Shown here piece after piece: positions 5,522 to 48,964 of a DNA stretch of 48,984 nt. Both the position numbers and the translations under genes were made by a program. Within the stretch, counting starts at the first letter, position 1; each line of letters opens with the position of its first letter. Where the stretch lies: the IMG/VR virus record IMGVR_UViG_3300011416_000015, positions 1 to 48,984 of that record. The stretch is one strand, 5' to 3'. The notes below the pieces were generated by a model. That model ran no database searches. It was not told the origin of the DNA and saw only the letters and a program-made list of their open reading frames with translations. This DNA comes from a virus.

Positions 5522-6796
5522 TTATTTTAGGGATGGCCTAAATTCTGTGATTGTCGCCGTGGAATTTAGCGCCCCCTCTGGCAAGTTGCACAATTGCTCG
5601 ATCACGCGGCGATTGATCTGGATCGCTGCGGCAAGTTCGTCGGCGGATCGGTGCCCACTTTCCAGCACTAGGCTGGCAGCCCGGCTCAGCAACTTGGGTT
5701 CTTCCATCGGAAATTCGTCGTCGTATGGTTCGCGCTTCCGCCACTTCCGAAAAGAAATCGTCTTGAACAGATTCAAATACTGGTCGTCATCAATAACGCC
5801 CAAGTGGTGGCACCGCATTACAAGGCCCTGAATGGACACCTTCCAACGTCGCTTCAACGGCAAAAATGCATCCAGTCGAGTGCTGAACACTTCACCGAGA
5901 AATGACCCTTTTGGTAGTAGGAACGCGCTCGCGAATTTGTCCGCCTCGCTTTCCACTTGCTTCAGCTTCTCGGGCTGATCTTCAATGTCCTCAATGCCGA
6001 TCCCTCGGTGCATGATCAGGTGGCCGAGTTCGTGCGCCGCATCAAATCTAGCCCTGACAGACGAGCTTTTTTCCGATGCTAGAAAGACGAACGCTCTATT
6101 CCCGTTCCAAAACGAGAACGCTTGTATGGTTTCGTTTGGGATTCCGTACCGGCAAACGATCACGCCCTTGTTTTCAAGGAGAGAGACAACGTTGGAAATG
6201 GGGCCTTGGCCGAGACCCCACATTTGGCGACATTGCGCGGCAAGTGCTTCGATCTCTTCAGGCGAATAGCGCCCATCGGCGCTCTCAGGCACAGGCGCTA
6301 GTGGGATGCTAACCGACGGGTAGTTCACGATTCCGTCGAGACACTTGGCTGTTTTCACCAACCAGCTTCCGAGTACTTCGCACGCGAGATTACGGCGCTT
6401 CGTCTTGAGTCCAAACGCGCGGAAAAACCGCGTACTGGATTCGCCAAACTCTGGCGGAGGATCATCGACAAAATAGGTCAGGGGTTGCTCGACAGCATTC
6501 GCAATACGCTCCATCACGAGCGGTTCAGGTATCGTTTGTCCCGATTCATACATCGAGACCGATTGTCTCGTCTTGCCTATCGTGTCACCGAGTTCAGTTT
6601 GGGTGAGCCGCATTGCGAACCGCGCATCGCGCAGTTTTGAGGGACGAAGACGTCTTGCCGTCGTCGCAGCCCTTGGTGAGCCGGCTCCGAAGGGCGCAGC
6701 CTCGGCGTAGGCCGATCTAAACGCGGGCGGCAAAACGACTTGTTGCTTTATTGGGATCTGATCAGCCAGAAACGCGTGAGCCGCCTTCGTATCCAT
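5522..6796 (-). CDS. HTH and ImmA/IrrE-type metallopeptidase regulator
   Basis: 424 aa. Residues 53-108 are an XRE helix-turn-helix (RLTQTELGDTIGKTRQSVSMYESGQ). Residues 180-300 hold the peptidase domain with the zinc site HELGH (255-259) and a downstream Glu-rich helix (ESEADKFASAFLLP). The C-terminus is helical. Proteins of this build (COG2856-type) cleave or relieve repressors in mobile elements, or act as antitoxin-like regulators. It has AGGAGG before the ATG and its own promoter. It is larger than ICE ImmA proteins because it fuses the DNA-binding and protease parts. It probably controls the 4.6-7.6 kb insert. Confidence 0.88.
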   Translation of the reverse strand: MDTKAAHAFLADQIPIKQQVVLPPAFRSAYAEAAPFGAGSPRAATTARRLRPSKLRDARFAMRLTQTELGDTIGKTRQSVSMYESGQTIPEPLVMERIANAVEQPLTYFVDDPPPEFGESSTRFFRAFGLKTKRRNLACEVLGSWLVKTAKCLDGIVNYPSVSIPLAPVPESADGRYSPEEIEALAAQCRQMWGLGQGPISNVVSLLENKGVIVCRYGIPNETIQAFSFWNGNRAFVFLASEKSSSVRARFDAAHELGHLIMHRGIGIEDIEDQPEKLKQVESEADKFASAFLLPKGSFLGEVFSTRLDAFLPLKRRWKVSIQGLVMRCHHLGVIDDDQYLNLFKTISFRKWRKREPYDDEFPMEEPKLLSRAASLVLESGHRSADELAAAIQINRRVIEQLCNLPEGALNSTATITEFRPSLK

Positions 6797-16852: not shown

Positions 16853-17454
16853 CAGGCCGCCACCTCGTTTCCCCACACGTCCCAGCCCGGCGCTGGCCGC
16901 CTGGCGAACATCTCAAGGTAGGGCCCCGTGCTGACCATCTCCACGGTCTTCCTGAACGACTCCGGCTTCTGCGAGTGCTCCTGGCGGGGTGCCGAGAACC
17001 ACGTCTTCCCCTGCGCCCGCTTGCCGTCCTCACGCAGCCGGTAGGGCACCATGCCGCGCACGCCGAACAGCACGTCCTCTGAGCAGCCGCGGAAGTACTG
17101 GCCGAGCCCGACCTGCAGGTCCGATTCGTCTGGCACTTCGAGCCGGCCGTCCTTCGCCTTCGTCCAGGTGATCTTCGTGACGTAGCGGAAGCCCCAGGCG
17201 TCCATGACCGCGAACCCGTCCTTGAGAAAGTTGTTCGTGACCCACAAGTACAAGTGCGCGTCCGGAGCCGCCCATGTACCAACCGGTAGCGCGCAAATGT
17301 CCTTCGTCGGCATCAACGGGTAGTGGCGATCGGCGCCGCGTTTGATCTGGCCGCCGCCGCGTTCGAGCCACGGGGGATCGGCCATGATCGTCTGGTAGAG
17401 CCCGACGCGTGCCGGTGGAGCGACTTGCGGTGAGAAGAGATCGAGCCCGCTCAT
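16852..17454 (-). CDS. MT-A70-type N6-adenine methyltransferase
   Basis: 200 aa. ADPPW (25-29) is the catalytic DPPW motif, preceded by the SAM-site strand (YQTIMADPPW). LYLWVTNNFLKDGFAVMDAW, the helix FRKTVEMVS and the C-terminal GWDVWGNE also match the family. Phage members methylate adenine in their own DNA, most likely to resist restriction. It overlaps the Dam-type gene by four bases, so the two methylases are co-translated. Confidence 0.92.
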   Translation of the reverse strand: MSGLDLFSPQVAPPARVGLYQTIMADPPWLERGGGQIKRGADRHYPLMPTKDICALPVGTWAAPDAHLYLWVTNNFLKDGFAVMDAWGFRYVTKITWTKAKDGRLEVPDESDLQVGLGQYFRGCSEDVLFGVRGMVPYRLREDGKRAQGKTWFSAPRQEHSQKPESFRKTVEMVSTGPYLEMFARRPAPGWDVWGNEVAA

Positions 17455-18812
17455 GACGCAGCCTCCGACATCGTCAGCATAGGGTGGCGGGTATCAGACA
17501 GGCAGTGCGGCGAGAACCAGATCCGCTCCGCGTGCCGGTTGCCCTTCCCGCGCACGGTCCGCCCGTAACCGCCGCCGGCCTTCCAGTGCGTGACGGACCA
17601 CGTCGACGGCATGTGCGGGCCGTGCTCGTCCTCGTAGCCACAGAGCGCGATGCGGAACTTCGGGTCGTCGCCGTTGGCGAGCGCCCAAGCGCGGACCTCG
17701 GCGCTGATGCCTTCGACGTCGTGCGAGTAACACAGCTCGCGGAGGTCTTGCTGGTAGGGCGGATCGAGGAACACGCCCGTCAGGCCGATGTACGTCGTCA
17801 CCGCCGGTGTCAGCACGCGCTTCCAGTCGCCGCAGCAGACGCGCACGCGGCGCAGCCTGGCGGCAAGCTCGTTCATGTAGGCGTAGAGCCCGCCGGAGCG
17901 GTCCCGGATGCCATCGGACATCGCGCCGCGCTGGGAGCCAGAGCCATCACCGGAGAGTTGCGGCAGTTGCCGCGTGAGCCGAGGTGCGTGGACGCCTTGC
18001 CCACCGCCGCGGCCGCCGCCGTTCGGCCGACGGACGCTGGTGCGGACCGTCTCGACGACGCTCGTCTTGTGGACGCCAACGCCGCCACCGTGGCCGCCGA
18101 GATAGGGACGCTTCTCGACCGTCGACGTCATCACGCCGCCACGCCCGTTCGCGGCCGTCAAGTCGGGCCGCTGCTCCCAATCCACAATTCGGTCGACGTC
18201 GGTGCCGTTGGCGTGGCGCTGGACGCGCTCGGCGTTGATGCCCCGGTCGGCGCTCAACTGCGGCCGCCGCTTCTGGTCCGGACCGTAGCCCATACGCGGG
18301 CTCTTCTCTTCGAGATCCTGATGCACGCCGCGCCCGCTGCCGCGATCGCAGTGGGGGCGCTTCTTCTGGCCGGCCGGATATTCGTTCCGCCGCCGGCGGT
18401 CCGTCGCGCACCAGCCGGAGCCGATCCAGAGGCACTGTCCGTAGACCCACCAGCCGGCGATCTTCGCGTCGAAGAACTCCGGGTTGGTCGTCAGCATCTC
18501 CACGCGATCGCGCGCGGTCTCGACCAACCATCGGTGCCGCGCGTGCAGGTCCGTCTCATTCACCGGCCAGTCGGCGTAGAAGGCGACGTGGTCGGGATCC
18601 TTCTGCACCGCTCGCCAGAAGTTCGCGAGGTAGGCGTCCTTGTCGTTGACCGTCTCGACCCGTGGCGGAAACTCCACGGGCCGAGCGAGGAGGTTCGCCA
18701 GAGAGCCGGCGAACGGTTCGATGTAGTTGGCGACGTCACCGAACCGCGGCCACACGAGGTGCGCCGCACGGCTCTTGCCGCCGAACCACGGGAAGGGGGC
18801 ACGGAGGGGCAA
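17451..18812 (-). CDS. D12-class DNA adenine methyltransferase with repetitive insert
   Basis: 453 aa from a TTG with AAGGA six bases upstream. PFPWFGGKS (residues 6-14) and YIEPFAGS (30-37) are the SAM-binding parts, and FLDPPYQQ (349-356) is the catalytic DPPY. Between residues about 148 and 300, where ordinary Dam proteins have a short target-recognition region, sits a long Gly/Arg/Pro-rich insert made of degenerate units starting KRP, RRP or QRP and often containing GxGVH. The core looks intact, so activity is likely. The insert probably affects target choice or protein contacts, which is inference. Confidence 0.88.
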   Translation of the reverse strand: MPLRAPFPWFGGKSRAAHLVWPRFGDVANYIEPFAGSLANLLARPVEFPPRVETVNDKDAYLANFWRAVQKDPDHVAFYADWPVNETDLHARHRWLVETARDRVEMLTTNPEFFDAKIAGWWVYGQCLWIGSGWCATDRRRRNEYPAGQKKRPHCDRGSGRGVHQDLEEKSPRMGYGPDQKRRPQLSADRGINAERVQRHANGTDVDRIVDWEQRPDLTAANGRGGVMTSTVEKRPYLGGHGGGVGVHKTSVVETVRTSVRRPNGGGRGGGQGVHAPRLTRQLPQLSGDGSGSQRGAMSDGIRDRSGGLYAYMNELAARLRRVRVCCGDWKRVLTPAVTTYIGLTGVFLDPPYQQDLRELCYSHDVEGISAEVRAWALANGDDPKFRIALCGYEDEHGPHMPSTWSVTHWKAGGGYGRTVRGKGNRHAERIWFSPHCLSDTRHPMLTMSEAAS

Positions 18813-39300: not shown

Positions 39301-40242
39301 GGCTGCGCCGCCGTCCGCGAACACGGACAGCGGAAACTGTCCCGTGTAGCTCATCTCGATGTAGTGCCCCACCGCGATCACGGGGTAGCCCGGATCCTGA
39401 ATGATCGCGTTCGTCGCGGCGTCGAACGTCCATTCCATGGTGTCGACGCCGTAGACCCCTACCAGGAACCCGCCAGCCCCCCCATCGATCCGCAGCGCCC
39501 CGATCAGCGCAATCGCCGTGACGTCCAGCACAAACGACCGCGTGACGCCGTCCCCGTCGTGGCGCTCGAAATAGATGTTCCGTGTCCCTTCGCCAGCCAG
39601 GACCGTGACGTAGTTCGCGTAGTTCGAGGCGGTCGGTTGTTCGACCGTGATGTCCCCGTCCACGTAGTCCGCGACGTCGACATCTTCCACGTCGAACGGC
39701 GCCGGAGTGGCCGCGATCTCGTACATGCCGAGGACTTTCTCGTAGCTGATGTTCCAGGTCCACGCGTAGTCGGTCAGCGCCGAGAGTTGATCGAGCACGT
39801 CGCGCAGGCGTTCCCCGTCGAAGGACAGGGCCGGGAGCGTCGGGCCTGTCGCCTGCGCCGCATCGAGCGTGACCCCGTAGTCGTCGTAGTAGGGCTCCAG
39901 CGCGATGAGCGCGGCTTCCAGAGACCCGGCCGCGATGTCGAGCACGACCTGTCGACGATCGGCGATCTCGTTGTAGTCGACCGCCGAGACCCGCAAGGTG
40001 ATCGCGTCGGTCGCGGAGACCCCGCCGAACCCCGCCTCTGCTGGCTGGTCGATCGTCCCGCCGAAGATGAACGTCCCGTCTTCTGTCAGGTCGATGTCGT
40101 CGCCGACCTCGAGCCGGAACGATCCATCGAGCGACAGCATGGAACCGTCGAACAGGTTCCGCCCGTTCGGCGCCTCACGGATCGAGAACCCTGGCTGGAG
40201 GGATTTGGCGCTTGCGTTAACGCGAAACACGTAGACAGCCAC
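36328..40242 (-). CDS. Tail hub/fibre protein, 1304 aa
   Basis: The first 400 residues have a baseplate-hub look: VYVFRVNASAKSLQPGFSIR, DVLDQLSALTDYAWTWNISY, and TFETGIHPGQTQLFDITKRN resemble gp27/gp44-type hubs. A Gly/Ser/Val linker (GGSSTGASSGGVVTVVSSGG) leads into about 800 residues of Thr/Ala/Gly-rich fibre repeats. The last 60 residues (ENFETRRSLGSIVTSLWQGA; ARITAMESEVATLRSEVARL) form a fibre tip with a trimeric coiled coil. It follows the tape measure immediately, the normal place for hub and receptor-binding genes. Confidence 0.82.
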   Translation of the reverse strand: MAVYVFRVNASAKSLQPGFSIREAPNGRNLFDGSMLSLDGSFRLEVGDDIDLTEDGTFIFGGTIDQPAEAGFGGVSATDAITLRVSAVDYNEIADRRQVVLDIAAGSLEAALIALEPYYDDYGVTLDAAQATGPTLPALSFDGERLRDVLDQLSALTDYAWTWNISYEKVLGMYEIAATPAPFDVEDVDVADYVDGDITVEQPTASNYANYVTVLAGEGTRNIYFERHDGDGVTRSFVLDVTAIALIGALRIDGGAGGFLVGVYGVDTMEWTFDAATNAIIQDPGYPVIAVGHYIEMSYTGQFPLSVFADGGAAAADRRDKTYAEPTVFIRLVAQGLADAYLARDMRQPRTVRYGTFETGIHPGQTQLFDITKRNLSGQFVITDVQIQNTAGIRVRRNVTAVEGEILPASIGETVMAWGGSSTGASSGGVVTVVSSGGVGGSGTAGKIAKWATGAILTDSVLSESGTVMTIAGSLVVPTISGATSATGAWTFTSAPFISTTEPALYLNETDQGADLKAIRFDLQGGVLQVQTLTDAFAVLATILTLSRAGALAVSSGITAGSGAVGIIDSTGKIPAISSTYFASLSGVNLTGVDLLGAVNTHTAAGVHTWSGASATTNRLFVENTTSGPTAAASMRATAGTTGAFLIAYSQGWTTAGSAVQAAGEVIATGAGGVSITASHASGDVRVYSRNTLAATFGASQLLTLTGALAVTGTGTFTTHVLPATNYVSNLGATATKFLQAHIAELVVETLVAQNTTATIGGRVIVAPTNILTADLAPAGTLITVKYNNFTNGDRIRLEAEGKLEWMAVASVAGGSAGAYTYTVTRNLDGSGADQWYAGDAAVDTVNGFIDIYSTAGVLSGTGPTIVGNVRTGTTYSDIAARWAIGNLDGLYGVSGSLYGVAMGDAAAANLVIDATNGIRFRVGTTNYAVLASTTFTFGAAAGNRVAWDGTNLTVVSANLTIGSAGITLAPASGSSYSGQSSYRFTRPTVNGFGDTGDVYAIWSADGTADQYLTLENTVVGDATEYGNAYVFLTAKGWDRIGLGNFGTADITLESTQTHPGRVTVTASDTIRLQHIVTTSHTLRTGTGSDSTTYTQSNANLMAGNNGEAVGVAGSTSLANINFYLQGTAQRKATIQAVGGVGASSNGGRLLFFTKDDAASGTDVVQAGYVDFSTGGAGGGLVWGAPTGGSKGAGTINAVAVYDDNVLLTDWLFDLHYDGRTSIEHAGRLFSIAEVAAIAQAERRLPWMPSAENFETRRSLGSIVTSLWQGAEQMMIYEIDHEARITAMESEVATLRSEVARLRA

Positions 40243-42945
40243 CTACCAGCCCCTACGGTCTTTGGCTTTCACGACTGCCTTGAGAAGGACGTCACCGTCC
40301 GGCATTACAACCGTGACCTGCGTGTCGCCGGCACCGGACGTGCTCGCGCGGCTGGATGACGCGCCGCCGCTGTACCCACTGTCTCGGCTGGACGTCGGCA
40401 CGCCGGACGGGACGTACCCGTAGCCGCTCCCGGTCTGGAAGCCAGGCACCCCGTACCGTGTCGGGATGTCGAGCCCCTGCCCGAAGATCCGCCGCAACTC
40501 GTTGTAGGTGTCCGTCCCGGCAGCGAGCACCTGGTCGAAGGTCTCTTGCTTCGCCGCGATCTCGGCGTCGCGCATGATGATCTGCGCGGCCTTCTCGGCT
40601 TCGATCTGTTCCATGCGCGCCCGTTCTTGGGTCTCCACAATCCCCATGAACTCCTCGGCCGCTTCCTTCGAGACGGAATCAGACAGCGACCTGTATTCGC
40701 TTTCGAGCTTCGAGATCGCGCCGGAGTACTTCTCAGAGATCGCGTCGAGCGCGGCTTGCTGCGCGGCGGACGACTCGGCAGCGGCGGCGGCGACCTCGGC
40801 GGTCTTCTCTTTCTGTTTCGCGAGGGCCGCCGTGATCTCCTCGATCGTGGCCTTGGCCTGGGCCGGGTTGTTGCGGCCGGTCCCTTGGGTCAACTTGATC
40901 CAGAGCCGTTCCCCTTCAGCGCCGAGCGCGTTCAGCGCCTCGTGCAACCCGTCCGGACCATCGAACCCGCCCGTGAACGTCGCTGCGAAGTCCTTCACGG
41001 CATCCCGCCCGGCCGTGCCGAACAACTTGTTCCAGATGGCGCCAGCGAGCGGACCGATCAGCGAGCCGATGATCGGCAGCGCGCCAGCGAACACCTTCCC
41101 CAACGCGCTATTGAACAGCGGCCCCGCCTTGTCCACCGTGCCGACGAGCGACTTCCCAAGGTTCCCCATCGCCATCGACCCGATCGCACTGATCCCGGAC
41201 TTGAGGGCGTCGCCGCCGCCCTGGAACGCCCCCGTGATCGTCTGCGCGAGATACTGACCCATCTCCGCGGACGTCCCGAACATGCCCTCCCAAATAGATT
41301 GCCGCGGCGCCTTCGGGATGATCGGCTTCCCGATGTCGATGTCCTTGTTCCCACCGAACGTCAGGGAGCCGACCGTGATCGTCTTCGACATCGCGCCCAG
41401 TTGAGCCACGGCCTTGACGTACGCATCCACGTGCGACGCGTTGACCGCCACCTCGGTGCCGATGTCCTTCAGGTTGAGCGCGGTCAACTTCAAGCTTGGG
41501 TGCAGCGCGTTCGTCACGCGTGCCATCTCGTACAGGCGGTCGGTGAGCGTCGCGCCTTCACCTTGGAGCTTGATGGCTTCCTTGACGATGGCGTCGATCT
41601 GATCTCTGGTGAGTTGTCCGCTGGACGCCAACCGCCTGAACACGACATCCAGGTCTTTCATCGCCGCGGTCGCGTTCGCTCCCGAGTACTTCTTGAACAG
41701 GGCGTCGATCGCGTCCGCGTGCCTTTTCGCCGCTTCGGTGGCTTTGTTCATCGCCTCGCGTTTCTTGTCGAGGGCGTCGCCCTCGGCCAACAACGCCGCC
41801 ACGTCGAACTTGGGCATGACTACGCCGGCGCCGACCGCACGCGGATCGGCCCCAACCTTCGGCAGCTTGCCGAGACTGCCGACGGCGGCCTCGGCCCACC
41901 GACCTAGGTCCTGCAGGTCCTCCGAGGCCTGCTTCGTGTCGAGATGGAGCGCGGCGAAGAACCGCGCGGCGTACTCCTTTTCCTCAGGCGAGTTCCATGC
42001 CGTCAACATCTTCGAGACGCTGGCGATCATTTCGCCGGAGATGATCGTGACCTTGTTCCCGAGCTTGGTCCACGCATCGCCGGCATCATCAAGACGCCGA
42101 ATCGTTTCGGCCGACATCACGTCGGCGGACCGGCCCGTCTCGACGAACCCTTCGGCCATCGCCGCGAGCATGGCCTTGCCGCCCTTACCGAACAGTTCTT
42201 GCTGGACCTCCGCCTGCTTCATGGCGTCGGTCATCTTCGACACGGCCGTGACAGTGACTTCGAAGGCTTCCTCCGGCTTCATCGCGCGGATCTTGGAGAA
42301 CTCCAGGCCGGCGTCCGCAAGCGCTTCGCGCGTTGAATTCTCGCCGGCGCCGAGCGACTTATTCATGAACGACAGCGCCCGTTCGACGTCGTCGATCGTA
42401 CCGCCGCTTAATTTAATGGCGTAGTCCCACCGTTGCACGGCATCCGTGGACACCTTGAGCTGCGCCGCCAGGTCTTGCACGTGGCTCGCGGAGTCAATCA
42501 CGCGGCCGACGAATCCGACAACGGCCTGCGCAGAGAACGCGATGCCGACGGCGGCGCCGATCTTCGTCAGCGTGCCCAGTAGGTTCGCGCTGCTCCCTAC
42601 GCCGCCTTTAGCGGCATCGTCTACGGCCCGCAACTTGTCCGCGGTCTGCTGCATCAACGGAGGGATCGGTTGGCCTGTCTGTTTGAGTTGCGCCAACCCA
42701 GCATCCAACTGCTTGAGATTCTTCGCGGCATCGGCAACGGTCAGCGTCGACACGCTGACGTCCTTCATGGCCGCCGTGATCGTGGCCGCCTTTTCGACGA
42801 CGAGCGCGCCGTTGCGCGCCCACGTCTCCTGCATCTTCGCAATCGACGGTCCGTACGACTCGATCGCGCCCTTCCCCGCGTTGAGGTTCGCGATCAGCTC
42901 CGCCGTATTGGAGACGATCTTGACGGCAAGTTGGGGTTGAGCCAT
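40243..42945 (-). CDS. Tail tape measure protein, 900 aa
   Basis: MAQPQLAVKIVSNTAELIAN opens the tape-measure N-terminus. LGTLTKIGAAVGIAFSAQAV, VQDLAAQLKVSTDAVQRWDY and FGKGGKAMLAAMAEGF match TP901-type tape measures. A hydrophobic stretch (AGALPIIGSLIGPLAGAIWN) lies in the middle, then long Ala/Glu coiled coil. A length of 900 aa suggests a tail near 130 nm at the usual 1.5 Å per residue (inference). It lies after the chaperone pair and the gp10-like gene. Confidence 0.92.
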   Translation of the reverse strand: MAQPQLAVKIVSNTAELIANLNAGKGAIESYGPSIAKMQETWARNGALVVEKAATITAAMKDVSVSTLTVADAAKNLKQLDAGLAQLKQTGQPIPPLMQQTADKLRAVDDAAKGGVGSSANLLGTLTKIGAAVGIAFSAQAVVGFVGRVIDSASHVQDLAAQLKVSTDAVQRWDYAIKLSGGTIDDVERALSFMNKSLGAGENSTREALADAGLEFSKIRAMKPEEAFEVTVTAVSKMTDAMKQAEVQQELFGKGGKAMLAAMAEGFVETGRSADVMSAETIRRLDDAGDAWTKLGNKVTIISGEMIASVSKMLTAWNSPEEKEYAARFFAALHLDTKQASEDLQDLGRWAEAAVGSLGKLPKVGADPRAVGAGVVMPKFDVAALLAEGDALDKKREAMNKATEAAKRHADAIDALFKKYSGANATAAMKDLDVVFRRLASSGQLTRDQIDAIVKEAIKLQGEGATLTDRLYEMARVTNALHPSLKLTALNLKDIGTEVAVNASHVDAYVKAVAQLGAMSKTITVGSLTFGGNKDIDIGKPIIPKAPRQSIWEGMFGTSAEMGQYLAQTITGAFQGGGDALKSGISAIGSMAMGNLGKSLVGTVDKAGPLFNSALGKVFAGALPIIGSLIGPLAGAIWNKLFGTAGRDAVKDFAATFTGGFDGPDGLHEALNALGAEGERLWIKLTQGTGRNNPAQAKATIEEITAALAKQKEKTAEVAAAAAESSAAQQAALDAISEKYSGAISKLESEYRSLSDSVSKEAAEEFMGIVETQERARMEQIEAEKAAQIIMRDAEIAAKQETFDQVLAAGTDTYNELRRIFGQGLDIPTRYGVPGFQTGSGYGYVPSGVPTSSRDSGYSGGASSSRASTSGAGDTQVTVVMPDGDVLLKAVVKAKDRRGW

Positions 42946-43338
42946 CTACCTGCCCACGTCTTCAAGCCACTGGACGATCGCGTCCGTCAGCCGCCGCATG
43001 TGTGGTTCTTGTTCGAGCCTAGCCGAACTGAAAAAGAAAGGCCTCGCGTACATGTGGACGGTGCCCCATTCCAAGTACTTGTCGATCGGGTCCTCTCCGA
43101 TCCCCGTGCGGTACCCGAGCACGACGTAGCCCTGGCCGTCTCGGCTGAGTTCGTAGTGGATCTCTGACGCCGTCTCACCCGTACGCCGTTTGGCTCGGTT
43201 CTTCGCCTCAGCGACGATCCGCTCTGCCGTCTCACGCGCCGCGGCACGGCACACAAAGTCCGCCGACTGCGCAAGGCGATCGAACAACGCGATCAGCGCT
43301 TGGGAGTCGACGGAGGCGGAGAACATGGGGCCGGCCAT
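42946..43338 (-). CDS. HK97 gp10-like tail component
   Basis: 130 aa. SALIALFDRLAQS-type helix, AERIVAEAKNRAKRRTGETA and GYRTGIGEDPIDKYLEWGTV followed by ARPFF match HK97-gp10 proteins (KR.TG and EfGT..m.arPF). These act at the head-tail joint. Here it sits between the chaperone pair and the tape measure, a less common place. TGATG overlaps the chaperone stop, and its TAG abuts the tape measure ATG. Confidence 0.8.
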   Translation of the reverse strand: MAGPMFSASVDSQALIALFDRLAQSADFVCRAAARETAERIVAEAKNRAKRRTGETASEIHYELSRDGQGYVVLGYRTGIGEDPIDKYLEWGTVHMYARPFFFSSARLEQEPHMRRLTDAIVQWLEDVGR

Positions 43339-44124
43339 CAGAGGTTCTGTTTCCTTTTCTGTCGCTCTTCCTCAGCGAGCGCGAAGTCGATGTCACTCAC
43401 GAGCGCGAAGAACGGCGTCTTCGGCAGTCGCGCTCTCGCTTCCGCCGTGTCCGCCGCCTCCGTCATCTGGTACGCCTGCTTGTAGCACTTCGCTTCGAGC
43501 ATTTCCTCGAGATACCCGATGGGTTGTCTGTCCATCTCGACCTGAATCTCAGACGGCAGGCGCCCTGGAAAGTGCTCACAGAGATCGGCCATCCGCAACA
43601 TGTCTGGATACGGCGCGTCCTCGTCGCCGTCAAGCGATCGGTGAATCGCTTTCAGTCTTTTTTTTTGCGTCCTCCCGCTTGTCAAAGTCGAGAAACAGTG
43701 CCGGCTTGGTGAACCGCAGGACTTCGCGCGCGATGAATTCCAGACGCTCGGCATCGAGCTCGTCGACTTCGGCATCGGTCACAGGGATCGGCGTGCCGTC
43801 TTCGAGATCGACGAACGTCCAGGCCGTAGCGCCGGACTTCACGAGGGTGAGTTGATCGAACGCATGAACGGGATCGCCGATCACGGCCGGCTCGCCAGAG
43901 GCCTTCCGTTCGGCCGCCAGTTTGGCGTGCTGCGCGGCGACACGCTCCCGGTAGGCATCGCCCCCCATCTTGTCGACGTACTCGTTCAGGGCGAAGTCGC
44001 GCTCTTCGTCGGCCTTGCGGAGATGGCGGCCCGCGAGCTTCTGGATCGTGACTTCGTGTGGGGTGCCGTCAGGTCTCGGATCGAACGGGATCGTGATGGT
44101 CTTTTTGCTGCGACGTGAACTCAT
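43338..44124 (-). CDS. Tail assembly chaperone, frameshifted long form (GT-like)
   Basis: The frame open from about 43657 to 43338 continues the short chaperone after a shift at the A9 run. It reads RLKAIHRSLDGDEDAPYPDM, FPGRLPSEIQVEMDRQPIGY, YKQAYQMTEAADTAEA, and ends RQKRKQNL, the helical T-like part of lambda GT. The shift needed is +1 or -2 (not the usual -1, which stops after two codons). The fusion would be about 261 aa. It has no good start of its own in the first part, which supports the frameshift. Confidence 0.78.
43630..44124 (-). CDS. Tail assembly chaperone, short form (G-like)
   Basis: 164 aa starting MSSRRSKKTITIPFDPRPDG after AGAGGGTTCC. A beta-rich front (GTPHEVTIQKLAGRHLRKAD), a helical middle and RLEFIAREVLRFTKPALFLD then DFDKREDAKKKTESDSPIA give the typical G-like chaperone that binds the tape measure. 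It ends shortly after the A9 run. Longer starts upstream (44166) are less likely. Confidence 0.8.
   Translation of the reverse strand: MSSRRSKKTITIPFDPRPDGTPHEVTIQKLAGRHLRKADEERDFALNEYVDKMGGDAYRERVAAQHAKLAAERKASGEPAVIGDPVHAFDQLTLVKSGATAWTFVDLEDGTPIPVTDAEVDELDAERLEFIAREVLRFTKPALFLDFDKREDAKKKTESDSPIA
43658..43666 (-). other. A9 slippage site for programmed frameshift
   Basis: On the sense strand the codons read GCA-AAA-AAA-AAG-ACT, that is nine A in a row, 29 codon-frame bases before the short-form stop. Runs of nine A are known to cause ribosomal or transcriptional slippage. Deleting one A (or a -2 shift) enters the long frame. Confidence 0.75.
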
Positions 44125-44204: not shown

Positions 44205-44648
44205 TTAACTCCACGCGCCGTCGAAGCCGCTGGCGCCCTGCGCCGGCCGCAACACGACCGACAGCCGCGTCAGTTTCTCGTTGACGACGACGGGTTCGGT
44301 CTTGATCAAGTGGTAGTGCCCTGACCATGTCGCCCCCGTCGCGACCACCGCGGAGACCAGTCGACCCGCACTCCCGACCGCCTTGTCACCCGCGACCTGT
44401 TTCAGCACGGTCCATGACCCAACCGTTGCGGCTGTTTCATAGAGCACCGAGAACACCAGGTCCGGGCTCTTGGTCATACCGACCGGCGTGTGTCCTTCGG
44501 CCGTTGATCCGAACGGATTGGACTGCTCGGTGATTGACTCGATCGCCATGCCGCTGATGGACTCCGGCGCAGGCGAGATGGTCCGCGCCGTCCCCCCAGG
44601 CGAGTCTTCGATCGAAAACGTGAAAGAAACGGAGCTATCTTTTGCCAT
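44205..44648 (-). CDS. Tail tube-type protein, short paralogue
   Basis: 147 aa. EQSNPFGSTAEGHTPVGMTK matches the corresponding segment of the 344-aa gene (DQSNPLGSGAEGHDPVGVTK). The rest is beta-rich (VGSWTVLKQVAGDKAVGSAG; HLIKTEPVVVNEKLTRLSVV), as in tail tube proteins. It is directly before the chaperones, the usual place of the major tail protein, so this is the best candidate for it. Confidence 0.72.
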   Translation of the reverse strand: MAKDSSVSFTFSIEDSPGGTARTISPAPESISGMAIESITEQSNPFGSTAEGHTPVGMTKSPDLVFSVLYETAATVGSWTVLKQVAGDKAVGSAGRLVSAVVATGATWSGHYHLIKTEPVVVNEKLTRLSVVLRPAQGASGFDGAWS

Positions 44649-44900: not shown

Positions 44901-45935
44901 CTACGCGCCGCCTCTCGCAAACCCACCGAACACCGTGATCGATCCCGCGGTCGTCAAGTCGCCGACCCATGCTAAATATCTCCGAACAATCGTGGTCACA
45001 GCCGCGGTTGCTTTGCGCTCAGCGACGTGCGCGCCCGAGGCGGTATCCGTGAACGTGATCAGGTCGGCCCAGGTCACTCCGTCGACGGAATGCACGACCT
45101 TGCCGACGTTCGCCGTCACACCTGACCGCGCCGTGAGCTGCATATGGCCGTAGCCCCCGCCGGCCCACGAGACGCGGATCAAGTACCCGCCCGTGCCATC
45201 GTTCGTCACGTCCACGGGAATCGAGAACGACGTCGCGTTGATGACGGTCACGGTGTGACCGATGCCTGTCCAGGCTTGTGCCGCCGCCGTGTCGTTGATG
45301 TCTGGCGTGATCCCGCCGGCCATCTCGAAGATCGCCACGACGTCACCCGTCACAAGATGGTGATCGTCTGGTGTCGTGATGATGCTGATCGCCGCCGCTT
45401 CCACGCTGGCGCCCGTGATGGGCACCCGGAGTGCCGCCGGATCGTCCGCGTAATCCACCGGCGTGGCCTTCGTGTCCCAGTCGATCGTCTGTGCGGCCAG
45501 GGCCTGGACGATTTGTCCTTCGTCGACCTGTCCGGTGACCTGATACCCGACGTTCGATTTCGTCAGCTTCCCGTTGCTGCTGAGTACGTCGTACTTCTGG
45601 GAGTAGGTGCCCTCGTAACCGGTGAAGTGGTTGCCGATCGTGTGGCCCTCGTTGAATACGCAGACTACGCGCGGCGTGGCGCCGACGGTGTCCGACAATC
45701 CGCTATCCGCGATGCCCGCATGCAGCAGATCGACTGCCTCGTCGAAGTAGCCCCCGCCGACCGCCAGCATGCCTTTCGTGACCCCAACAGGATCGTGTCC
45801 TTCCGCGCCGGAGCCGAGCGGGTTGGATTGGTCGGTCACGATCTCATTCGACCGGCTGACGGTCTCCATGAGGAGTGGCGTCAGGTCGTTGCCGTCGACA
45901 AGCAACGCAAAGGACGTGCTAGAATATTTTGACAA
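44901..45935 (-). CDS. Tail tube-type protein with extra C-terminal domain
   Basis: 344 aa from a TTG (STSFALLVDGNDLTPLLMET) with AGGA ten bases upstream. Residues 1-150 resemble tail tube proteins and share the QSNP..S.AEGH.PVG.TK box with the gene at 44205. The C-terminal part contains ISIITTPDDHHLVTGDVVAI...GHTVTVINATSFSIPVDVT, which resembles FCCH-like beta domains of phage tails (HGL.tGD.V.I.g.), followed by VAWVG-type strands. It may decorate the tube. It is next to the opposite-strand HNH gene. Confidence 0.72.
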   Translation of the reverse strand: MSKYSSTSFALLVDGNDLTPLLMETVSRSNEIVTDQSNPLGSGAEGHDPVGVTKGMLAVGGGYFDEAVDLLHAGIADSGLSDTVGATPRVVCVFNEGHTIGNHFTGYEGTYSQKYDVLSSNGKLTKSNVGYQVTGQVDEGQIVQALAAQTIDWDTKATPVDYADDPAALRVPITGASVEAAAISIITTPDDHHLVTGDVVAIFEMAGGITPDINDTAAAQAWTGIGHTVTVINATSFSIPVDVTNDGTGGYLIRVSWAGGGYGHMQLTARSGVTANVGKVVHSVDGVTWADLITFTDTASGAHVAERKATAAVTTIVRRYLAWVGDLTTAGSITVFGGFARGGA

Positions 45936-45978
45936 GTGGCACAGTTCCTATCTTGTTATCGGCTACGATGGTTACATC

Positions 45979-46812
45979 ATGCCGAAAGCTATTACGCCAC
46001 CGCCTGCGAGTTATCCCACTCACGGCTTTTGTCTCTGTGGATGCGGCCAGAAGGCAGCCATTTCCAAATCGAACGGCCCGGGCGCGAATCGCTTCAAGGG
46101 CTACCCTCGGCTCTACATCCACGGACACAACGGACGCGGGAAGAAAAGAGATGCACCGCCGTACCGCGAACTCGGCACGCCGACTATTTGCGAGTGCGGG
46201 TGTGGCAGATCTTTCTCCAGAGAGGTCAAGCATGGAGCTCCACTGCGCTTCATTCCTGGCCATCAGTTCAGAACGCCAATCGCAAGACAGAACTCGCTGG
46301 CTGCGAAAATGCGGCAACGCGCCGCGCCTACGTGTGTCCATTCCGGCGTGTGCCTCTGCGGGTGTGGCCAAGCCACGCCAATCTCCACGTATACATCGGT
46401 CCCGCGTGGTTTCTATGTCGGCCTGCCGACTCTCTTCGTGCCTGGACATAAGCCGATGCCTACAGGCCCTGACAATAAACTCTTCATCGGCAGACGAAAG
46501 AGCGCACTTGGCTACGTCTACGTCTACTACCCAGAACATCCAGGCGCCATAAAGACGAAAACTATGCGGGGCTATATTGCCGAGCACAGAGTCGTGCTTG
46601 AGACGGCGCTCGGTCGCTTTTTGTTGCCGAACGAATGCGGGCATCACATCAATGGGATTCGAGACGACAACCGTCCTGAGAACTTGATCGCCTTGACTCG
46701 CAGCGAGCATCGCAAACTGCATCAGCCAGACGACGAGTGCAGTGCAGAGACACGCCGGAAGCTCTCCGAAGCGTCGCGCAGAACATGGGCCAAGCGTCGC
46801 GCGAAGGCGTGA
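45979..46812 (+). CDS. Opposite-strand HNH endonuclease with three CxCGCG units
   Basis: 277 aa. Three repeats each have a CxCGCG knuckle (Cys18-22, 71-75, 125-129) followed about 25 residues later by a Gly-His pair (HGH, PGHQ, PGHK). The catalytic box ECGHHINGIRDDNRPENLIA lies at 219-238. The C-terminus SAETRRKLSEASRRTWAKRR is NUMOD3-like, a DNA-binding piece of homing endonucleases. It lies antisense between two structural genes with no other rightward gene nearby, as for a homing insertion. Confidence 0.85.
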   Translation: MPKAITPPPASYPTHGFCLCGCGQKAAISKSNGPGANRFKGYPRLYIHGHNGRGKKRDAPPYRELGTPTICECGCGRSFSREVKHGAPLRFIPGHQFRTPIARQNSLAAKMRQRAAPTCVHSGVCLCGCGQATPISTYTSVPRGFYVGLPTLFVPGHKPMPTGPDNKLFIGRRKSALGYVYVYYPEHPGAIKTKTMRGYIAEHRVVLETALGRFLLPNECGHHINGIRDDNRPENLIALTRSEHRKLHQPDDECSAETRRKLSEASRRTWAKRRAKA

Positions 46813-46817
46813 TTTGC

Positions 46818-47012
46818 TCATCGCCCACGTTCCTTCTCGTACTCGAACGCACAGCGTTCACACGTCACGTCAACGAGCGCACCCATACCAGACCGCACCC
46901 GTCGATCGGGTCCGGCACCACACCGTGGACAGTTCGCCGTGCGCGGCAGACGCGCGGGCTTCCCCTGTGGCGTCACGATAGCGGAGGCCGCGTCCTGGGT
47001 CTCGTCAGGCAT
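46818..47012 (-). CDS. Zinc-ribbon small protein
   Basis: 64 aa from an ATG overlapping the upstream stop (TGATG). NCPRCGAGPDRRVRSGMGAL then CERCAFEYEKERGR is a classical four-Cys ribbon. Such proteins sit in many late operons and their role is unknown. The HNH gene lies immediately after it on the other strand. Confidence 0.62.
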   Translation of the reverse strand: MPDETQDAASAIVTPQGKPARLPRTANCPRCGAGPDRRVRSGMGALVDVTCERCAFEYEKERGR

Positions 47013-47236
47013 CAACGTTTGCCTTTCCCCTTTACCGGCGTGGGCACGTCAGGCGCGGCCTGGGCCTTCTCCATCGACGCAACAGCTTTGTCGACGGACG
47101 CCCAGAAGTCCCGTGTCTCGGCGTTCCGGAACACCTTCGCCGGCTGAGAGACTTGCTCACGAATGGGCCGGCCAGCGTCGTCGTAGGTCCGGACGACGAG
47201 TTGCACGATCACTTCTTCACAACGGGTCTTGTTCAT
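47012..47236 (-). CDS. Small tail-region protein, 74 aa
   Basis: Starts MNKTRCEEVIVQLVVRTYDD at a TGATG overlap. It has a strand (VIVQLVVRTYDDAGRPIREQ) then a helix (FWASVDKAVASMEKAQAA) and a Lys-rich tail. No family is recognised. It lies between two small structural genes. Confidence 0.6.
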   Translation of the reverse strand: MNKTRCEEVIVQLVVRTYDDAGRPIREQVSQPAKVFRNAETRDFWASVDKAVASMEKAQAAPDVPTPVKGKGKR

Positions 47237-47568
47237 CAGACCCCTGCGAGCAGTGACCAATCCGCGGCGAGCTGCGCCTCGATGTCCGCATCGCCAGAGG
47301 CCGTCACGACCGCGCCCTGCTGGAAGTCGTACGACGTGGTAAACGCGACCACGCTGGTCCGCATGACCAGCCACGGCGCCACCTGCAACGCGGCGCCATC
47401 CACGTTGGCGATCACCGTCCTGGCGTAGGCCGCCCTGACCGCGTGGTCCTGCGTGGCGCCCGACTCGTTGAGGACCTGCCACGCGACCTTCGCGAGTGCC
47501 GCCTTGACGCGCTGCCGAAACCGACCGTCATCCGCAAGCGCCTGCTGGGTGAATGCGTCGTTTGCCAT
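47236..47568 (-). CDS. Hypothetical structural-region protein
   Basis: 110 aa starting MANDAFTQQALADDGRFRQR. A helical first half (VKAALAKVAWQVLNESGATQ) precedes YARTVIANVDGAALQVAPWL and a hydrophobic C-terminus. It resembles phage proteins near head-tail joining genes in position only. AAGGGGAAGACC lies before the ATG. Confidence 0.6.
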   Translation of the reverse strand: MANDAFTQQALADDGRFRQRVKAALAKVAWQVLNESGATQDHAVRAAYARTVIANVDGAALQVAPWLVMRTSVVAFTTSYDFQQGAVVTASGDADIEAQLAADWSLLAGV

Positions 47569-47594
47569 TGGTCTTCCCCTTCTTCCGTGGCCGT

Positions 47595-48518
47595 TTATGA
47601 ATCAACCGTGATCGTCTTCACGACCCCGTCCGCATAGACGACCTTGAGATCGCCATCGGCGGTATCGACGTAAATCCGCGCTTCCCCTGTGCCGGCACCT
47701 GGTGCGTCGATACCGTCGCCAATCGCGAGGTAGCCCGCGAAGTGTCCGTGACGGGGACGGTTCGCGTTGGTCTGTCCGACGTCGTAGGTGTTGTCCGTCT
47801 GGTTGACGAAATGACCCGTCCCGCTCATCCGCCACGAGGCGAGGTTCGCCGGGTAAAAGTCCAGCACCGTGCCCGAAATGGACACCGCCGCATCTGGCAC
47901 GCCCGTGACGTTCGTGCCGATAAAGATGGGGCGCGCCGCTCCTGTTCCGCCCTTTTGCGTGCCGATGTAGAGTTGGTTACCGGAGTACCCGAAGATCGCG
48001 CGCTCGTAGTTGGTGGAATTCGTGAACGTGTTGTAGGGTCGAAACATCTGCGCGGTCGTACCGTTTCGCTGGTCGATCATATTCGCGGTGGATCCCTCCA
48101 GCACCGACCCGCCAGAGAACCCCACACTCGTCAACGTCGGCGTCGCAGTCCAGGCCGGCGTCGAACCACCCACGAGCACCGTCAAGGCCGCGCCAGTCGC
48201 CAACGATCCAATCGCGTTCGCCCCGGTGGCGACCATCAGATCTCCAGCCGTCGCACTATCGGGGAGCGTCAGCGTCGACCAAGCCGGCGCCGCAGCTGCC
48301 CCAGCCGACCGCATGTACGACCCTGCCGCCACCGGCTCCACCCACGAGAATCCATTCGCCGCTCCGCTGTCCCGAAACAGTAGTGCGCCTGTTGGATTTG
48401 ACGTGCCGAACATGGCCGTCAGTAGGCCCGTGATCCGGTTCAGGTCAGACGGGCGAAACTTCGTCGCGTCTGGCCCGTCCGCATAGATGCTCGTGAACAG
48501 CGGCGGCGTCAGGCTCAT
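47595..48518 (-). CDS. Fibre-like structural protein
   Basis: 307 aa. The N-terminus SLTPPLFTSIYADGPDATKF is followed by Thr/Ala/Gly-rich repeats (LPDSATAGDLMVATGANAIG; GVPDAAVSISGTVLDFYPAN) similar in style to those of the 1304-aa fibre, and a C-terminus with ARIYVDTADGDLKVVYADGV, a strand-rich end typical of fibre or spike proteins. It overlaps the tail completion gene (ATGA). It is likely a virion fibre or decoration protein. Confidence 0.65.
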   Translation of the reverse strand: MSLTPPLFTSIYADGPDATKFRPSDLNRITGLLTAMFGTSNPTGALLFRDSGAANGFSWVEPVAAGSYMRSAGAAAAPAWSTLTLPDSATAGDLMVATGANAIGSLATGAALTVLVGGSTPAWTATPTLTSVGFSGGSVLEGSTANMIDQRNGTTAQMFRPYNTFTNSTNYERAIFGYSGNQLYIGTQKGGTGAARPIFIGTNVTGVPDAAVSISGTVLDFYPANLASWRMSGTGHFVNQTDNTYDVGQTNANRPRHGHFAGYLAIGDGIDAPGAGTGEARIYVDTADGDLKVVYADGVVKTITVDS

Positions 48519-48964
48519 TGGATCCAGTCCGGATCAACGAATGGCACGGCGTCGTGGTTGTCCTGTTCCACCCAGATCGTGAAGATCGACACGACCTCGT
48601 GAACCTTGACGTCGTGAAGCAGTTCATCGCGGAGCGTGATCGTCTCTCGATAGACGATCCGGCCCGCATGCGAGTAGCCCGTATCGGTGAGCACGAGGCC
48701 GGCGTCTTTGAGCAACGCCACAATCTGCAGGTTGATGCCATGCGCCTCGGACATGGACCCCTGATCGCTGAACACGTGCGTTCGCACGTCGAGCTCTGGT
48801 AATCCGCCCGTCCCCAGGCCGCGCTTGTCGACCTCGCTCATGATCTCGATGAGCACGACAGGGCGCGGCGTGTTCTGCGGAATGTCGTCGTACAGCCGGC
48901 CGCCAATCGCCGCCTGTAGTGTCGCGTCCTGAAGGACCGCGAACACGGCCTCGAGCACCGGCAT
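48515..48964 (-). CDS. Tail completion protein, DUF3168-like
   Basis: 149 aa. EAVFAVLQDATLQAAIGGRL, LDVRTHVFSDQGSMSEAHGI, NLQIVALLKDAGL and EVVSIFTIWVEQ follow the DUF3168 order (early L..d..L...v.g.iyd, then h.l.vws...g..ea..i...v...L). These proteins complete the tail at the neck. It is the first gene visible in the late operon; the start ATG lies 20 bases from the window end, so the upstream gene is not seen. Confidence 0.8.
   Translation of the reverse strand: MPVLEAVFAVLQDATLQAAIGGRLYDDIPQNTPRPVVLIEIMSEVDKRGLGTGGLPELDVRTHVFSDQGSMSEAHGINLQIVALLKDAGLVLTDTGYSHAGRIVYRETITLRDELLHDVKVHEVVSIFTIWVEQDNHDAVPFVDPDWIQ

Follow-up and report, generated by a model that had tools for sequence, protein, structure and literature searches.

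The chaperone locus and its reading frames

The window, by which we mean the whole 49-kb stretch of viral DNA analysed (an IMG/VR virus record), carries its tail genes on the minus strand. Among these lie two overlapping frames, G and T, whose junction is marked by a run of nine A's (A9). The features in and around this junction are listed below.

40243-42945, minus strand: tape measure protein, 900 aa
42946-43338, minus strand: HK97-gp10-like neck/tail completion protein, its start overlapping the T stop
43338-43664, minus strand: T, 108 aa, starting KKRLKAIHRSLDG..., putative C-terminal extension in GT
43630-44124, minus strand: G, putative short tail assembly chaperone, 164 aa, C-terminal end ...DAKKKTESDSPIA*
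43632-43651, minus strand: predicted stem-loop with an 8-bp stem and a 4-nt loop (AAGCGAUU CACC GAUCGCUU), 6 nt past the A run
43652-43657, minus strand: GACTGA, the -1 frame stop and 6-nt spacer ahead of the hairpin
43658-43666, minus strand: A9 candidate slippery run, read as GCA AAA AAA AAG in frame with G and lacking one A for the -1 register
43671-43676, minus strand: GGGAGG, a Shine-Dalgarno-like element 4 nt upstream of the A run
44205-44648, minus strand: 147-aa protein similar to the N-terminal portion of the major tail protein
44901-45935, minus strand: major tail protein, 344 aa

Translation of both frames confirmed the original prediction that T lies one base ahead of G (+1/-2). 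The G frame at the junction reads GAC GCA AAA AAA AAG ACT GAA AGC GAT TCA CCG ATC GCT TGA and, if nine is the true count of A's, T is reached from the genomic sequence solely by a Mu-type shift of -2 or +1, yielding a computed GT product of 262 or 261 aa, respectively. The translated window also bears out the claim that a -1 shift on A9 would soon terminate: it stops at GAC TGA after 157 aa. The end of G lies 28 bases past the run on recount, rather than 29 as first given.

The downstream frame had been described as coding and as lacking a ribosome-binding site of its own, and both descriptions held up. T is open, shows no sign of decay and is 50-55% identical to its counterparts in two related viruses (L003 and L013, introduced below); its stop overlaps the start of the next gene (TGATG at 43340-43336). 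No start in T has a well-placed ribosome-binding site. Were T nevertheless a separate gene, the ATGs at 43601, the first in the frame, and at 43592 would yield proteins of 84-87 aa; the ribosome-binding sites of both are weak or badly spaced, and initiation even at 43601 would drop a conserved KKR start that lies upstream of both codons and in 11 relatives leads into the slip site. On these grounds separate expression of T was rejected, and we regard it, together with the possibility that the window phage has ceased to make GT, as very improbable.

The assignment of G and T as a tail assembly chaperone pair draws on position, predicted fold and two-frame layout, which agree with one another and with the original prediction. 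The two frames lie between the genes for the major tail protein and the tape measure protein, with the gp10-like gene intervening between T and the latter, and a second frame, conserved as coding, overlaps the end of G. The G model (pLDDT 87) gave as its best match in a Foldseek search of viral structures a tail assembly chaperone (E 8.4e-4, probability 1.00); further matches carry the same name, at TM-scores of just ~0.3-0.4. Searches of the G model against the PDB, and of the all-helical T model (pLDDT 91.5) against viral structures, gave no useful match. Membership in a known sequence family was not found: G and T of the window matched no family in PHROGs or Pfam, the aligned T family matched no PHROG, and the aligned G family gave no useful match, its one PHROG hit (E 0.0094) being of unknown function. 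Taken together, the position, fold and layout support a G/GT pair.

Slip sites and hairpins in the relatives

Single-protein searches of viral contigs and named phages found no relatives, nor did scans of bacterial and archaeal genomes. A repeat common to the major tail protein and its 147-aa neighbor led to a first relative, L003, and others came from wider alignments of the major tail protein and this paralog. All are from IMG/VR, and 12 distinct ones hold the junction; those alike at the junction (L016/L017/L021 and L025/L027) were each counted once. The major tail protein of L008 is 73% identical to the window's, and its contig stops short of G.

All 12 carry a slip site of the form X XXY YYZ in the zero frame that leads into T by a -1 shift; the window has no such site, and it alone needs +1 or -2. 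In 11 of them (the A-type relatives) G carries the heptamer A AAA AAC close to its end and stops 1-8 codons past it, and T, read in the -1 frame, begins KKR. The original proposal that T is expressed by slippage at the A run is supported. The twelfth, a distant relative (L025:6909-7262, and L027), replaces the A heptamer with C CCA AAA, also a -1 site. In L016:2754-2787 and L024:4948-4981 the G stop lies eight codons beyond the heptamer, much as in the window.

G of the window is 35-38% identical to those of L003, L006 and L013. A tree of G and T together places the window with L003, near L006, L013 and L024, all of which are -1; support for the fork is moderate (94/95), and the window is 43-45% identical to its nearest neighbors. 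Alignment of relatives had been suggested as a check on whether A9 is conserved, and it is not: the relatives have six or seven A's followed by C, or CCCAAAA, and among those found no close one has the same long run.

A stem-loop is predicted a few bases past the heptamer in 11 of 11 A-type relatives (L003, L006, L010, L011, L013, L015, L016, L019, L020, L022 and L024; z -1.0 to -5.9). Its position ranks within the most stable 10% of the region in nine of these, and at 14% and 18% in L006 and L024, respectively; in L025, folding and stability ranking found no strong stem downstream of C CCA AAA. When seven relatives were aligned over the outer stem, 82% of cells were paired, a value reached by eight of 500 shuffles and by none of the slid versions of the alignment (38-52%). 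Four of the eight pairs remain paired while varying on both sides, which lends modest support to the stem, the sequences being few and related. A single hairpin conserved in all relatives was considered and rejected, as L011 and L015 pair differently. The pairing of the stem-loop varies between branches of the chaperone family. The window retains a stem-loop after the same 6-nt spacer. Whatever the true length of its A run, then, the analysis describes a family of tail chaperones whose heptamer is followed by a hairpin.

The length of the A run

The run comprises exactly nine A's, flanked by GGAGGACGC and GACTGAAAGC, and is the sole A or T run of at least seven in the 49-kb window, in which ~0.03 runs of at least nine are expected by chance. 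It places at the frame junction an A or T tract of the length (about nine or more) looked for in transcriptional slippage. The stem-loop downstream (z -3.16 together with an adjoining hairpin; top 3.5% of local positions) follows a spacer within the 5-9 nt of -1 sites, and GACTGA, which forms that spacer, sits where L006 has its G stop (AAC GAC TGA). Upstream, GGGAGG has the strongest anti-Shine-Dalgarno pairing of the set (-10.3 kcal/mol) and is a possible stimulator. With an 8-bp stem at -1-site spacing and GGGAGG upstream, the layout of the window still looks built for a -1 shift.

Codon spacing indicates how this layout may have changed. L003, L006, L013 and L024 have LF, nine residues and [TQR]KN (LFM-DAAEREAD-TKN, LFQ-TGEEAKAE-QKN, LFL-TEDERQAV-QKN and LFQ-TPADAETE-RKN), where the window has LF, nine residues and KKK (LFL-DFDKREDA-KKK). 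Aligned by codon, L006 reads CAA AAA AAC GAC TGA and the window AAA AAA AAG ACT GA; one extra A in the latter would give AAA AAA AAA GAC TGA, the layout of L006. Measured against this spacing in its four closest relatives, the run reads most simply as A10 minus one, derived by substitutions from codons like CAA AAA AAC, and the site as a hairpin-stimulated -1 site, expanded into poly(A), from which one A has been lost. Since all relatives are -1 and the spacing is one A short of the ancestral register, the need for +1 or -2 is not a family trait: either one base was lost recently or the homopolymer was miscounted. The sequences show how the frames relate, that the site descends from a -1 site, that a hairpin follows and that one A is lacking.

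If the homopolymer was miscounted, the genome has A10 and one A went missing from the contig, through an assembly error or because a minority variant was taken as consensus. The junction would then read GCA AAA AAA AAA GAC TGA, an ordinary -1 site with slip sequence A AAA AAA, the hairpin 6 nt on, and a G of 157 aa that stops one codon past the heptamer as in L006; this restores exactly the layout of the relatives, fits the codon spacing of the four nearest and matches the -1 shift found in every one. The remaining -1 geometry suits such an undercounted run equally well, which counts against a real A9. On the other side, nothing points to indels as a general problem: the neighboring tail genes are intact from end to end, and a C7 run (39477-39483) lies within an uninterrupted 1304-aa frame. 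Consensus from short reads is usually correct at runs of nine to ten, and from this general experience we give a real A9 combined with mixed slippage somewhat better odds than an A10 that was undercounted, the latter being a serious but less probable reading. Should A10 prove correct, the locus would be a cautionary case in which one miscalled homopolymer made a standard -1 site look like an exotic shift.

Possible routes to the extended product

The reading that we prefer, at a probability of roughly one half, is that the G/GT pair descends from a hairpin-stimulated -1 ancestor, that A9 is real and one A short, and that GT is still made, because a poly(A) run of such length tolerates changes of register. 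The ancestral -1 site would have consisted of A AAA AAN, then a 6-nt spacer, then a stem-loop. In the window phage the heptamer would have grown into poly(A) and come to rest one A below the -1 register, and RNA polymerase would yield mRNAs with other A counts. Products were computed for runs of A6-A13: A8 and A11 mRNAs would fuse G and T directly, as proteins of 261 and 262 aa, and an A10 mRNA would restore the ordinary hairpin-stimulated -1 site. Loss of one A, the slippage route originally proposed, does join the frames, but it is one route only, as a gain of two (A11) also does so. A hairpin-stimulated -2 slip of the ribosome on A9 may add to GT.

With a real A9, GT needs slippage of RNA polymerase, a -2 ribosomal shift, or both. 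Precedent makes slippage in transcription at this run plausible: nine consecutive A's are enough for bacterial polymerase to slip (PMC5009743; PMC6260861), it mostly adds A's at such runs (PMC5574713, PMC5009743), and an A11 run in Citrobacter rodentium tssM1 rescues a split gene at ~20% (PMC4256274). Against the polymerase reading, one study in E. coli found that poly(A) slips less than poly(T) (PMC6260861). We infer a true A9, polymerase slippage at it and production of GT. That the G:GT ratio is set by polymerase slippage on A9, having evolved from the hairpin-stimulated -1 site of the relatives, is a narrower proposal that we put forward tentatively.

The ribosome alone might also suffice on a real A9, by a -2 slip on AAA AAG, as in phage Mu, or by +1, aided by the hairpin and GGGAGG; tail chaperones offer precedents for both directions (PMC5009743), every position in the run allows tRNA-Lys to pair again, and the hairpin and the Shine-Dalgarno-like element are present. 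A -1 slip, however, should compete strongly and would end at GAC TGA, no relative uses -2 or +1, and a nine-A run is expected to slip in transcription as well. We therefore consider a purely ribosomal route unlikely and favor mixed slippage on the A run.

Tailed phages use -1, -2 or +1 depending on the member (PMC5009743), and since -2 and +1 are already known in tail chaperones, the direction of the shift alone is not new. Like lambda G/GT and its -1 homologs, the window has a short and an extended chaperone before the tape measure gene with a slip site near the end of G, and its relatives share the -1 heptamers; it differs in that its run is A9 and out of the -1 register. A stem-loop also lies downstream, whereas according to a review certain tailed-phage shifts seem to do without a stimulator (PMC5009743). 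With phage Mu and other -2/+1 tail chaperones the window shares the +1/-2 relation of G and T, but it differs from them as a one-genome departure from a -1 family, at a poly(A) run with a hairpin. Tail assembly in lambda is sensitive to the ratio of G to GT, and a register shifted by one base should therefore come at a cost.

A further parallel is dnaX, which relies on transcriptional slippage at A9 in Thermus thermophilus and on a -1 ribosomal shift, at a heptamer with a hairpin and a Shine-Dalgarno-like element, in E. coli. As in the window's family, homologous genes carry in one case the heptamer with its hairpin and Shine-Dalgarno-like element and in the other an A9 run; the gene in the window differs in being a phage tail gene whose slippage is a candidate. 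C. rodentium tssM1 resembles the window in that an out-of-frame gene end is reached through poly(A) and two products are needed, and differs in its A11 run, its demonstrated slippage and in being no phage chaperone (PMC4256274). In a full-text search of the accessible literature, which turned up a general review, a prediction tool and a survey of frame transitions, we found no report of polymerase slippage in a tail assembly chaperone. If the polymerase reading is true, the locus would mirror in a phage the two dnaX mechanisms, growth of poly(A) having freed the run length to drift; a real A9 would mean that such growth can make a gene of this kind tolerant of indels and shift control from ribosome to polymerase.

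Several other features of the window were noted. At 17451-18812, the N-terminus of the predicted protein matches only the start of D12 adenine methyltransferase, and the long remainder is mostly unmatched. Almost no family matches were obtained in the ~2.6 kb at 45936-48514, which separate the major tail protein gene from a tail completion gene (48515-48964); in L003 and L008 these two genes lie close together. The tandem proteins encoded at 44205-44648 and 44901-45935 share a major-tail-protein-like N-terminal part (QSNP.G...AEGH.PV), and the pair is kept in L003, L005, L006, L010 and L011. Finally, the product of 5522-6796, which combines a helix-turn-helix with an IrrE-like M78 peptidase domain, may regulate lysogeny.
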